Assembly: GCF_000423445.1 (NCBI RefSeq)
Contig: NZ_AUHZ01000006.1
Span: 62,001-126,000, forward strand
Origin: Acidipropionibacterium thoenii DSM 20276
Lineage (GTDB): Bacteria; Actinomycetota; Actinomycetes; Propionibacteriales; Propionibacteriaceae
Length of the DNA: 64,000 bases
Direction of reading: 5' to 3'
Part shown: in pieces, positions 51,989 through 56,525 of the stretch
Numbering within the stretch: position 1 is the first letter of the stretch
How the letters are laid out: the number at the start of each line of letters is the position of its first letter
The notes under the pieces: generated by a model
Seen by the model: only the letters and a program-made list of their open reading frames with translations
Databases searched by the model: none
Told to the model about the DNA's origin: nothing
Position numbers and translations under genes: made by a program

Positions 51989-52061
51989 GGATGAGACCGA
52001 CGGTCATCGACAACAGGTGACTGCTCGTGGCAGTCGGTTGCCCCGTGGAATGATGGGCGCC

Positions 52062-52724
52062 ATGAGTTCCCACTACCCGACACCGCAGGGTCAGTGGGGA
52101 CATCCGGGCCAGCAGCCCACCGGTGGTCGGTCCGGGCAGCAGCCCCCACCGCCACAGCCGTTCACCCAGCAACCAGGCCAGCAGGGCCGTCCGCAGCAGC
52201 CCCGCTGGCCCCAGCAGCCTCCTCCGCAGCGCCCTGCGCAGGAGTGGCGTCGTCACGCCGATCAGTTCCCTCGCCCCACCCCGCCGGGAATGCTCACCGC
52301 CGCGCGGATCCTGGTCTTCGTGCCCAGCGTGGTCTGGCTGTTCAGCATCGCCATGATCTGGATGACGGCCAACACCGCCACCGACTCGCTGCTGGCCGCC
52401 ACCATGCAGACCTTCGCCCTCAGCCTGGCGGCCGGCGACTGGGTGCCGATGGTGCTGCTGCCGATCTCTGGATGCCTGCTGACGATCACCATGAAGCTCG
52501 GCCACCAGGTCGACCGGTGGCTGTTCTCCGCGCTGGGCGGGGTCTGGTTGTTGTGGTTCTGGAGTCAGGTCCACTTCCCGCTGACCCCCAGCTGGTTCAC
52601 CGCAGTCCTGGTGATCCTGGCCACCGCCTCCATCTGGAGCCCCTCGATGAACCGCTGGGTCGCCGCAGTCCAGATGTGGGAGATGGACCGGGCCGGACTC
52701 ACTCCTGAGAGCAACGGCCAGTGA
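52062..52724 (+). CDS. Pro/Gln-rich four-helix membrane protein
   Basis: 220 aa, unknown. The first 75 residues are Gln-, Pro- and Gly-rich (HPGQQPTGGRSGQQPPPPQ), likely disordered and cytoplasmic. Four membrane helices follow: ARILVFVPSVVWLFSIAMIWM, AAGDWVPMVLLPISGCLLTI, WLFSALGGVWLLWFWSQV, and SWFTAVLVILATASIW. The N-terminus is like that of actinobacterial membrane proteins with PQ-rich leaders. Stop overlaps the start of the sortase-like gene as GTGA, so the two products are probably made together and may form a complex. Start ATG 52062; ATG 52050 is possible. Confidence 0.75.
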   Translation: MSSHYPTPQGQWGHPGQQPTGGRSGQQPPPPQPFTQQPGQQGRPQQPRWPQQPPPQRPAQEWRRHADQFPRPTPPGMLTAARILVFVPSVVWLFSIAMIWMTANTATDSLLAATMQTFALSLAAGDWVPMVLLPISGCLLTITMKLGHQVDRWLFSALGGVWLLWFWSQVHFPLTPSWFTAVLVILATASIWSPSMNRWVAAVQMWEMDRAGLTPESNGQ

Positions 52725-53461
52725 TCAGGCCTCGCCGCTCATCGAGCAAGTCCTCGGCTGCCACCACCTCCAGACGCCGGCTGCGTCCCTTCGGGTGGAC
52801 CGTGGTCGGGCTGCTGGCCGCCCTGCTGGCAGCTGCGATCTGGGTGGGCTGGACCTGGTGGGGCAGCACCCTGTTGGCCGGCGACAAGGGGCGGGTTGCG
52901 GCCTCGGCGGCCCAGGCCTCCTGGTCGGCCTCCCCGGCCCCGGCCTCCGCGGCGGCATCGGCCGCCACGCCGGGCGTGGCGTCCTCCCAGTCCTCGGGCC
53001 CAGCTGAGGGCCAACTCGTCGCCGTCATGCGGATCCCTCGCCTCGGTGATGACTGGAAGTGGCCGGTCTACGCCTCCACCGCCGAGGCCGACACCGCCCT
53101 GAACCACGGCCTGGCCTGGTACCGCGGAACCGCCCTGCCGGGTCAGATCGGCAACTTCGCGGTGGCCGGGCGCTCGGCCACCGGGGCCAACGCCTTCCGG
53201 TACGCCGAGAGGCTGCGCGCCGGCGACGAGGTCATCGTGGAGACGGCATCCGCCATCTACACCTACCGGATCGACGTCCCCTTCTCCGGGCTGAGCGTCG
53301 ACTCCAGCGCCGACTGGGTCCTGGACCCGGTGCCCGGCCATCCCGACGCCGACGCCCAGCAGCCGCTGCTCACCCTGACCACCAACCAGGACGTCGTTCC
53401 CACCGACTCCCGCTCGGTGGCCGTCGGCCATCTGGTGCAGACCCGCAACCGGATCTCCTGA
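52721..53461 (+). CDS. Sortase-fold protein lacking catalytic His and Cys
   Basis: 246 aa. Membrane anchor at residues 25-48 (WTVVGLLAALLAAAIWVGWTWW), Ala/Ser linker, then a class E/D-like sortase domain: VAVMRIPRLGDDWKWPVYAS, ALNHGLAWYRGTALPGQIGNFAVAGRSATGANAFRYAERLRAGDEVIVETASAIYTYRI. The position expected to read A-G-H-R reads A-G-R-S (Arg151), and TLTTC reads TLTTN (Asn222). Arg231 in DSRSVAVG may correspond to the catalytic Arg. With two of three catalytic residues gone, transpeptidation is not expected; a structural or binding role is more likely. The frame is intact and GTGA-coupled to the membrane protein upstream. The GTG start is at 52721. Confidence 0.85.
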   Translation: MIRPRRSSSKSSAATTSRRRLRPFGWTVVGLLAALLAAAIWVGWTWWGSTLLAGDKGRVAASAAQASWSASPAPASAAASAATPGVASSQSSGPAEGQLVAVMRIPRLGDDWKWPVYASTAEADTALNHGLAWYRGTALPGQIGNFAVAGRSATGANAFRYAERLRAGDEVIVETASAIYTYRIDVPFSGLSVDSSADWVLDPVPGHPDADAQQPLLTLTTNQDVVPTDSRSVAVGHLVQTRNRIS

Positions 53462-53594
53462 ATCCTCGCCCGGCCATGGACTTGACCGCATCCGGATAGG
53501 CTGGCAGGACACGCTCCCCTCAGTGGCAACGTCGATGGGGGCAACCCGCGAAGAATCAGAGCACCACCAGAGAAGCCACTCGAAAGGCAGTCAG

Positions 53595-54353
53595 ATGCTC
53601 GTCCTCCTCATCATCCTGGTCATCGTCATCGGCGGTGCACTCGGGCTGTTCATCGCTCCGTACAACTCCTTGGTCAGACTGCGCAACGTCATCCAGGAGT
53701 CCTGGCGTCAGGTCGATGTCGAGCTGAACCGCCGCTACGAGCTCATCCCGAATCTCGTCGAGACGGTGCGCGCCGGGGCCGCGCACGAGCGCAACACCCT
53801 GGAGGAGGTCACCCGACTTCGCAACCAGGCGGTCCAGATGGCATCGGGATCCCACTCGGACGGCCCCGACCCGCAACGCGACCAGATCGAGTCCCAGCTG
53901 ACCGGCGCGGTCCGCAACCTGATGGTCCAGGTCGAGGCCTATCCACAGCTGCGCAGCAACGAGAACTTCCTGGAGCTGCAGCGCGAACTGGCGGCCACCG
54001 AGGACCGGATCGCCAACGGCCGGCGCTACTACAACGCCAACGTCCGGGCCTACAACACCAAGATCGAGAGCTTCCCCTCGAACCTGGCGGCGAATATGTT
54101 CCACTTCGAGAAGGCCGGCTACTTCCAGGTCGACGACGCCGCCGTGAGATCCGCGCCTACTGTCAACTTCGGGGAGATCAGCCAGCGCCCGCCGCAGAGC
54201 GAGCCCGGTACCCCCGGCCAGCTCGAACAGGGCGGCCAGACGCCGGCTCCGGGCTATCAGATCCAGCAGCCAGGCGGCTCACAGCAGCCTCAGTACCAGC
54301 AGCCGGGAGCCGCTCCCGAGGACCCCCAGGAGCCTTTTCGCCCTCAGCAGTGA
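53595..54353 (+). CDS. lemA: LemA-family membrane protein
   Basis: 252 aa. The N-terminal helix LVLLIILVIVIGGALGLFIAPYNSLVRLRN anchors a LemA four-helix domain: ESWRQVDVELNRRYELIPNLVETVRAGAAHERNTLEEVTRLRNQA and VQVEAYPQLRSNENFLELQRELAATEDRIANGRRYYNANVRAYNTKIESFPSNLAANMFHFEKAGYFQVD, both family signatures. The C-terminal 65 residues are Gln/Pro-rich and disordered. LemA function is unclear. ATG 53595 has GAAAGG upstream; the frame is open further upstream without a good start. Confidence 0.92.
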   Translation: MLVLLIILVIVIGGALGLFIAPYNSLVRLRNVIQESWRQVDVELNRRYELIPNLVETVRAGAAHERNTLEEVTRLRNQAVQMASGSHSDGPDPQRDQIESQLTGAVRNLMVQVEAYPQLRSNENFLELQRELAATEDRIANGRRYYNANVRAYNTKIESFPSNLAANMFHFEKAGYFQVDDAAVRSAPTVNFGEISQRPPQSEPGTPGQLEQGGQTPAPGYQIQQPGGSQQPQYQQPGAAPEDPQEPFRPQQ

Positions 54354-55022: not shown

Positions 55023-55727
55023 TCAGTGGACGGTGCCCGGGGCGGCTCGACGGGCCTTCAGCCACTCCACCACCATCGGGATCACCGAGATCGCCACGAT
55101 GAGCACCACGACGATCTCGAAGTTGTCGCGGATGAGGGGCACCGTGCCCAGGAAGTGACCGGCCTGGACGGCGATCAGCACCCAGGCGACGCCGCCGATC
55201 GCGGTGTAGGAGATGAACTTTCGGGGGTCCATCCTCCCGATCCCGGCGACCATCGTCACGAAGGTGCGCACGATCGGCACGAAGCGGGCCAGCACCAGGG
55301 CCACCGGGCCGTGCTTGACGAAGAACTCCTCGGTCTTGGCGACGTGCTTGGGGGAGAAGATCTGCCCGGCCAGACCCTCCCGGTCGCGGAACAGCGCCGG
55401 TCCGATCCGGCGTCCGATCCAGTATCCGACGACATTGCCGGCCACCGCGGCGACCATCAGCGTCAGATTGACCACCAGCAGGGTCTCGACCCTGCCGCCG
55501 TAGCTGATGAGCGGCGCCGAGCCGGAACTGAGGCCCACCGCCGTGAACATCCCGATCGCGAACAGCAGCGAGTCACCCGGCATGAAGAAGATCGCCAGAC
55601 CGCACTCGGCGAAGACGATGAAGGCCACCAGCCACAGTGCCGAGGCGCCGGCTGCCTCCACGATGTGCTGGGGGTCCAGGAAGGAGGGCAGAAGTAGCGG
55701 GGTGAACCAGGTGGCGACGCTCAGCAT
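55023..55727 (-). CDS. DedA-family membrane protein
   Basis: 234 aa. The DedA core is clear: AECGLAIFFMPGDSLLFAIGMF (with the family E and PGD), VVGYWIGRRIGPALFRDR, KTEEFFVKHGPVALVLARFVPIVRTFVTMVAGIGRMDPRKFISYTAIGGVAW. F-x-x-R-F-x-P-x-x-R is the essential Arg motif. Members flip undecaprenyl phosphate or phosphatidylethanolamine across the membrane. The start is uncertain: ATG 55727 or GTG 55736, which has AGGA about 10 nt upstream. Divergent from the RNA methyltransferase gene with only 36 nt between, so their promoters must overlap coding sequence. Confidence 0.9.
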   Translation of the reverse strand: MLSVATWFTPLLLPSFLDPQHIVEAAGASALWLVAFIVFAECGLAIFFMPGDSLLFAIGMFTAVGLSSGSAPLISYGGRVETLLVVNLTLMVAAVAGNVVGYWIGRRIGPALFRDREGLAGQIFSPKHVAKTEEFFVKHGPVALVLARFVPIVRTFVTMVAGIGRMDPRKFISYTAIGGVAWVLIAVQAGHFLGTVPLIRDNFEIVVVLIVAISVIPMVVEWLKARRAAPGTVH

Positions 55728-55763
55728 GAGGGACACAATACGTGGCGGTCCTACGGTTGAGCT

Positions 55764-56525
55764 GTGGACGACATCACGGGGCAGACGCCGCAGATCGATC
55801 CGTCGGTGAGCACACCGCCGCCGGCGCTGTCCGGGGATGATGGCCATTCAGCGGACGCCGGGGCCGGATCCGGTGGCGTCGCCACGGACTCCGGCGGGCC
55901 CGCAGCGGGCCCGCACGGCGCCCCGCAGGTGGGCGTGGGCCCGATGCCCAGACCCTGGCCCACGGACCCGCGGTACGACCCCGAGCTGCTGGAACACGGC
56001 GACCGGCGCAATGTCATCGACCGGTACCGCTACTGGAGCGTGGCGGCGATCGTCGCCGAGCTGGACCGGCATCGCTCCCGGTTGCACGTGGCGATCCAGA
56101 ACTGGGAGCACGACTTCAACATCGGCTCGATCGTGCGGACCGCCAACGCCTTCAACGTCGCCGGCGTCCACATCCTGGGAAGACACCGGTGGAACCGTCG
56201 CGGTGCGATGGTCACCGACCGTTACCTGCACGTCCACCACCATGAGAGCGTGGCCGACTTCCTGGACTGGCTCGCCGATCACGGCGTCACCCCGATCGGT
56301 GTCGACAACCTGCCCGGATCGGTGCCCCTGGAGGAGACTGAGCTGCCGCGCGACTGCTGCCTGGTGTTCGGCTCGGAGGGTGCCGGGCTGACCGAGGAGG
56401 TGGTCGCGGGATGCCAGTCCCTGGTGGCGATCACCCAGTACGGCTCGACCCGGTCGATCAACGCGGGAGCGGCATCGGCGATCGCGATGTACCACTGGGC
56501 ATTGCGCTGGGCGCGGGCCGACTGA
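55764..56525 (+). CDS. SpoU/TrmH-family RNA 2'-O-methyltransferase
   Basis: 253 aa. A disordered Gly/Pro/Ala-rich N-terminus of about 75 residues precedes a SPOUT domain with the three TrmH motifs: NIGSIVRTANAFNVAGVHILG (motif 1), DCCLVFGSEGAGLTEEVV (motif 2, knot SAM site) and QYGSTRSINAGAASAIAMYHW (motif 3). It methylates a ribose 2'-OH in tRNA or rRNA; target base unknown. GTG start at 55764. The long leader is not common, and the start could lie further in, but codon use is consistent from the GTG onward. Confidence 0.92.
   Translation: MDDITGQTPQIDPSVSTPPPALSGDDGHSADAGAGSGGVATDSGGPAAGPHGAPQVGVGPMPRPWPTDPRYDPELLEHGDRRNVIDRYRYWSVAAIVAELDRHRSRLHVAIQNWEHDFNIGSIVRTANAFNVAGVHILGRHRWNRRGAMVTDRYLHVHHHESVADFLDWLADHGVTPIGVDNLPGSVPLEETELPRDCCLVFGSEGAGLTEEVVAGCQSLVAITQYGSTRSINAGAASAIAMYHWALRWARAD

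Follow-up and report, generated by a model that had tools for sequence, protein, structure and literature searches.

The locus and its class E sortase homologue

Within the window, by which we mean the whole stretch of 64,000 nucleotides from Acidipropionibacterium thoenii DSM 20276 (genome size, 2.94 Mb), an open frame of the class E sortase family overlaps the end of a membrane-protein gene and lies upstream of a LemA-family gene. We refer to its 246-amino-acid product as the pseudo-sortase. The features at this locus are listed below, with residues paired, where possible, with their counterparts in SrtE1 of Streptomyces coelicolor.

52017..52724, forward strand: upstream frame with a Pro/Gln-rich N terminus and three to four membrane helices, no Pfam match, start codon provisional
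52721..53461, forward strand: pseudo-sortase, class E sortase family, 246 amino acids, GTG start, open frame
52787..52930, forward strand: predicted long N-terminal helix (residues 23 to 70) with the membrane anchor, from the AlphaFold2 model and a hydrophobic stretch in the sequence
53120..53122, forward strand: Tyr134, kept, aligned via 5go5 with SrtE1 Tyr229, the tyrosine of the beta3/beta4 loop proposed to recognize class E substrates
53171..53173, forward strand: Arg151, replacing the catalytic His, which is His251 in SrtE1 (5go5 alignment), Arg in 6 of 6 close genomes
53384..53386, forward strand: Asn222, replacing the catalytic Cys, which is Cys320 in SrtE1 (5go5 alignment)
53396..53398, forward strand: Val226, four residues past the Cys position, where 72 of 73 intact relatives carry Phe
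53411..53413, forward strand: Arg231, the catalytic Arg (SrtE1 Arg329), kept, according to alignment and counts
53523..54353, forward strand: downstream LemA-family gene, a frequent neighbor of the sortase locus

The Pfam sortase domain (PF04203) matches the protein with 64.6 bits against a cut-off of 26.6, and among the sortase classes listed the class E model NF033747 scores highest (141 bits versus 41.6 and 36 for two class D models), although this score lies below the curated class E cut-off of 160 bits. With the same model, the three intact relatives tested reached 202 to 208 bits and seven degenerate ones 112 to 165 bits, two of them above the cut-off. An AlphaFold2 model built from 60 sequences (mean pLDDT, 88) consists of a long N-terminal helix and a sortase beta-barrel, and this predicted fold matches Streptomyces SrtE 5go5 with a Z score of 21.6 (rmsd of 2.3 over 144 residues) and 5uus with a Z score of 22.3. 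The first-pass annotation, made from the sequence alone, had proposed a homologue of class D/E sortases without the catalytic His and Cys; such a homologue is real, and class E fits it best.

The alignment with 5go5 places the motifs where that annotation had put them: in AVAGRSATG, R151 stands under the H of AGH, and in LTLTTNQ, N222 stands under the C of TTC, with both catalytic residues replaced. A catalytic pair displaced to other positions, which had been named as a possible objection, was rejected, because the pseudo-sortase contains no Cys at all among its 246 residues. Alternatively, a different chemistry might operate at the same place, for instance with a Ser nucleophile, and Ser is the commonest replacement of the Cys (23 of the 76 degenerate sequences introduced below). 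However, the five genomes of the genus have N, N, S, S, and G at position 222, and A. timonense has S, so no other nucleophile has become fixed there; in other degenerate sequences, Ala, Glu, His, and Arg are found as well. The His base is also gone, position 151 being Arg throughout the five genomes of the genus and in A. timonense, and we consider a substitute chemistry very improbable.

The GTG start of the pseudo-sortase gene and the TGA stop of the upstream frame overlap as GTGA (52721 to 52724). A member of the same upstream membrane gene family lies 5' of the pseudo-sortase in all six close genomes (own genome included; one found via tblastn only), bearing out the coupling to a membrane-protein gene that the sequence had first suggested. 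That this membrane protein might be a partner of the dead form only was rejected, as in other genera, genes remotely homologous to its own lie 5' of sortases with an intact triad (hhalign probability, 98.6). Our home-made gene caller, which misses genes (in A. jensenii, for example, the one upstream of the sortase), did not detect this fast-evolving gene next to most of the other degenerate copies.

A common neighborhood surrounds many of the sortase genes, degenerate and intact alike, and is composed of a methyltransferase-like gene (our own label, as it has no Pfam match), the sortase, often a phosphoribosyltransferase, LemA, DedA, a SpoU methylase, and a class II aldolase, although the full set is not found at every locus; LemA is present in 46 of the 81 neighborhood stretches. 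Since this neighborhood is shared with intact relatives, the catalytic site was lost in place. As a separate observation, the frames of the DedA-like gene (55026 to 55847, reverse strand) and the SpoU methylase (55764 to 56522, forward strand) overlap in the window by 84 bases when taken from their listed starts, and their true starts probably lie further in.

Repeated loss of the catalytic triad in the family

Both His and Cys are absent in all five genomes of the genus (own genome included) and in A. timonense, and the frame is open in all six. Among the best 80 of 527 confirmed loci, A. jensenii and A. timonense are the nearest named relatives. Close homologues with both residues, which would have pointed to decay in a single strain, do not occur in the clade of 37 sequences to which the gene of the window belongs. 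The pseudo-sortase is not a product of strain decay; the loss is common to the whole genus and A. timonense. That a sequencing, reading, or assembly error removed the two residues was rejected as well, since both are missing from the assemblies of six species, and we give this explanation practically no weight.

To survey the family, the pseudo-sortase was used as the query, which matched 166 of 198 genomes. We read 150 listed places (30 plus 120) and dropped one without a usable frame (L220), leaving 149 sequences from 137 genomes, which are the best scoring among the matches listed for a query that is itself degenerate. Among these matches, the full His-Cys-Arg triad is present in 73 sequences and broken in 76; 66 genomes hold degenerate copies only, 61 hold intact copies only, and 10 hold both. 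Degenerate examples come from A. jensenii, A. timonense, Tessaracoccus rhinocerotis, T. massiliensis, T. bendigoensis (which has an intact copy beside the degenerate one), T. oleiagri, and Arachnia propionica. Degenerate genes account for 24 of the named loci, which are the best 80 among 527 confirmed ones. They comprise 19 of the 34 loci from Propionibacteriaceae, 3 of 13 from Nocardioidaceae, 1 of 12 from Kribbellaceae, and 1 of the 2 unranked loci; the remaining 19 loci include no degenerate gene. In genus-level group g8 (G059 to G067), eight of the nine genomes have no match to the pseudo-sortase, and only that of A. timonense (G067) keeps it.

The triad is lost several times independently in the class E sortases of Propionibacteriaceae. 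On a quick-type tree computed without the catalytic columns (139 columns, with 57 of 156 inner branches open), the label intact or degenerate requires at least eight changes, of which the starred branches force four, and a single clade of all 76 degenerate sequences is rejected (p-AU = 2.1e-5). The gene of the window sits in the clade of 37 (SH-aLRT, 95), which has no intact member and spans nine genus-level groups (g1, g2, g6, g8, g20, g25, g27, g28, and g29). In seven g28 genomes, an intact SrtE occurs in addition to a sequence of this clade.

A different pattern emerged where the His, and not the Cys, had disappeared. Nine of the 149 sequences (L009, L018, L019, L028, L114, L117, L124, L127, and L133) carry a Cys one residue past the His position, in the motifs AG[RNQY]C, TGYC, or TAHC combined with TTC or ITC, and all nine keep the catalytic Cys. 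This neighboring Cys is found in eight of the nine sequences that have lost His and kept Cys, in 1 of the 73 intact sequences, and in none of the 67 that have lost Cys. All nine belong to one genus-level group (g3), so few independent events lie behind the pattern, which a disulfide bridging the dead site might explain.

Selection, peptide groove, and possible functions

The frequency of the broken triad raises the question of whether the gene is still maintained. For disjoint close pairs with a dS of 0.05 to 0.7 and a dN below 0.15, a filter that excludes most pairs of the window's own genus, the median dN/dS was 0.20 in nine degenerate pairs (range, 0.12 to 0.39) and 0.18 in 13 intact pairs (p = 0.84). 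Without a dS cap, degenerate and intact pairs were again alike, with p = 1.00 at a dN below 0.15, 0.25 in 21 degenerate versus 0.20 in 26 intact pairs at a dN up to 0.25 (p = 0.65), and 0.27 in 28 versus 0.26 in 33 pairs at a dN up to 0.36 (p = 0.60). Within the window's own group (six genomes, 15 pairs), dN/dS ranged from 0.25 to 0.62, with a median of 0.43, which is below 1 and exceeds the median of the other pairs in all five dN bins that hold own-group pairs. This elevation may reflect a real relaxation, or else a dS depressed by the high third-position G+C, which is 0.90 to 0.97 in the own group (family median, 0.91). Purifying selection acts on the gene, though perhaps less strongly in its own genus than in its relatives. 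The first-pass view that the intact frame speaks against simple decay is therefore well founded for the family as a whole, where degenerate and intact genes have the same dN/dS, and less firm for the window's genus.

These data bear on the idea that the gene is decaying slowly and being lost after a class F sortase assumed the housekeeping work. The own genome does contain such a candidate, its only other PF04203 match, which has the His, Cys, and Arg motifs (judged by eye) and answers the earlier call for a genome search for a sortase with catalytic motifs:

L002 1486-2226 (genome place G000:C1:460061-460501, another contig), reverse strand: divergent class F sortase with a PF04203 match; its class F score of 66 bits is far below the class F cut-off of 166

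In addition, Cutibacterium acnes is said in one review to possess a single sortase, of class F (PMC7913060), and another review gives 19 predicted substrates for the one C. acnes sortase studied (PMC8200545). Elsewhere, SrtE alone was reportedly required for sporangium formation and a quadruple class F deletion made no change (PMC13251363). Across the family, 45 genomes with only degenerate copies and 37 with an intact copy have class F, and 16 and 30, respectively, do not (Fisher p = 0.04; 128 of the 137 genomes, with 9 of doubtful class F score left out and kinship ignored). When kinship was controlled for, the starred branches yielded four pairs, too few to reach 0.05, and the link was not confirmed; we therefore set aside a class F takeover as the driver, on a weak association and a comparison of low power. 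Slow decay would fit the raised dN/dS of the own group and the eight g8 genomes without a match. However, the frames are open in all six close genomes, the family-wide dN/dS equals that of the intact relatives, the clade of 37 covers nine genus-level groups, and the high third-position G+C may account for part of the own-group signal. With the class F link unconfirmed, we regard slow decay as improbable.

If the protein is maintained without its catalytic residues, which parts of it are retained? Among the 76 degenerate sequences, Arg231 is still present in 70 (so that the catalytic Arg is also gone in 6), Tyr134 in 71, and Val or Ile at position 233 in 75, versus 13 for His, 9 for Cys, and 8 for Phe226. 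Tyr134 was placed via 5go5, the phmmer alignment with 5cuw being off by one at this residue. In SrtE1 of S. coelicolor, Arg329 and Tyr229, the counterparts of Arg231 and Tyr134, may hydrogen-bond the bound peptide, and recognition of the class E signal LAXTG has been proposed for Tyr229 (PMC5148588). Another peptide contact, Ala149 (SrtE1 Ala249), is kept in 61 of the 76 degenerate sequences and in 24 of the 37 in the window's clade. Taken with the SrtE1 contacts, the loss of His and Cys alongside the retention of Arg231 and Tyr134 means that the chemistry is gone and most of the named peptide contacts are retained. This lends indirect support to one part of the earlier proposal, that the protein could bind sorting signals without cleaving them. 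The other part, modulation of an active sortase, might involve the class F enzyme of the own genome, but the family-wide link between class F and degenerate class E is weak. Conservation is also relaxed at several further positions: in the clade of 37, Phe146 is kept in 18, Pro203 in 17, Glu174 in 14, and Phe235 in 14 sequences (all below 50%). Separately, the Phe found at 226 in intact relatives mostly disappears along with the catalytic Cys four residues before it, and this Phe may be an active-site residue in this branch of class E.

The search for LPxTG/LAxTG substrates, also proposed at the outset, came back empty in the own genome, with no convincing signal protein among 101 sites read back and the profile matches. 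PF00746 had no match over its cut-off in five genomes. TIGR01167 had seven matches over its cut-off in these genomes, three of them in the own genome and without a sorting motif at the C terminus, and it also had matches over the cut-off in 9 of 14 control genomes. Among the stretches fetched for profile matches, the sole likely signal was an LPGTG in A. jensenii (L240, genome G002). An L[PA]xTG-type DNA pattern, which for most third positions allows only G or C and so misses other codons, hit 99 sites in the own genome versus 55 for the reversed pattern; of the 101 sites read back, 32 had a stop within 60 codons, and none was a convincing C-terminal signal. One candidate, L299, with an LADTG, a hydrophobic stretch, and RR, was rejected, as we read it as the last helix of a transporter.

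Repeated loss of the triad in a gene that is still maintained suggests another role, one independent of cleavage. Our best explanation, which we hold tentatively and at somewhat less than an even chance, is that a membrane-anchored pseudo-sortase grips a peptide in the class E groove without cleaving it. The fold, the anchor, and most of the peptide groove would have been kept while the His base and the Cys nucleophile were lost. The protein would most likely sit in the membrane facing the wall, where Tyr134 and Arg231 might bind a C-terminal sorting signal or a similar peptide, and the bound protein could then be held, delivered, or shielded, possibly together with the membrane protein encoded by the overlapping gene.

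The main rival to this reading is a repurposed scaffold, in which the fold and anchor serve for protein-protein contacts within an envelope complex (with LemA or the overlapping gene's membrane protein) and nothing occupies the groove. Such a role would be consistent with the selection on frame and fold while several conserved positions relax, with the constant presence of the upstream membrane gene family in the six close genomes and of its remote homologues beside intact sortases, and with the frequency of LemA in the neighborhood stretches. However, a mere scaffold would have no need for Arg231 and Tyr134, kept in 70 and 71 of 76 sequences, unless these residues are structural, and the membrane gene went undetected beside most other degenerate copies, with the reservation already made about our gene caller and a fast-evolving gene. 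We judge the scaffold to be the less likely of the two, if a serious contender.

It is tempting to extend the peptide-gripping explanation to the family, although we consider this extension rather unlikely to hold as a whole: Propionibacteriaceae would have repeatedly turned a class E sortase into a non-cleaving receptor of sorting signals that holds or hands over surface proteins, and one Tessaracoccus/Arachnia form, maybe disulfide-locked through the old catalytic Cys and the new one, could represent a first step. Sortases matter as drug targets and as tools for protein engineering, and any gene that encodes the domain is easily miscounted as an active enzyme. Going by the established mechanism, roughly half of the class E sequences read in the family (76 of 149, among the matches listed) should not function as enzymes. 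If binding without cleavage is true, the capture of substrates at the membrane before cleavage would become open to study in dairy and soil bacteria, and the repeated loss would offer a natural series for the question of how an enzyme becomes a binding protein.

Comparison with known sortases

Our literature search found no description of a natural family of catalytically dead sortases among the titles and abstract openings covered, most subscription journals lying outside it. Among characterized proteins, SrtE1 of S. coelicolor (5cuw) and SrtE of S. avermitilis (5go5 and 5go6) have the same fold as the pseudo-sortase (Z scores of 19.8 to 21.6) and share with it the triad Arg, the substrate tyrosine, and the LTLTT strand; unlike them, the pseudo-sortase has its catalytic His and Cys replaced. 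Its neighborhood also differs from that of the outgroup loci, which are marked by clusters c11, c22, c32, and c35, presumably pknB, pbpA, and the like. The own genome's divergent class F enzyme shares the sortase domain, but with the His, Cys, and Arg motifs in place.

Closer comparisons come from the family and its neighbors. Intact SrtE proteins of other Propionibacteriaceae and of Kribbella (L037, L040, and L045) are encoded at a related locus with LemA and are 33 to 40% identical to the pseudo-sortase; their triad is whole, and it is they that score 202 to 208 bits with the class E model, versus 141 for the pseudo-sortase. In contrast, the degenerate SrtE proteins of Tessaracoccus and Arachnia (L039, L054, L061, and L091) have likewise lost catalytic residues in a related gene, yet they fall outside the window's clade of 37, and some degenerate SrtE proteins of these genera keep the Cys and carry the extra Cys next to the lost His.
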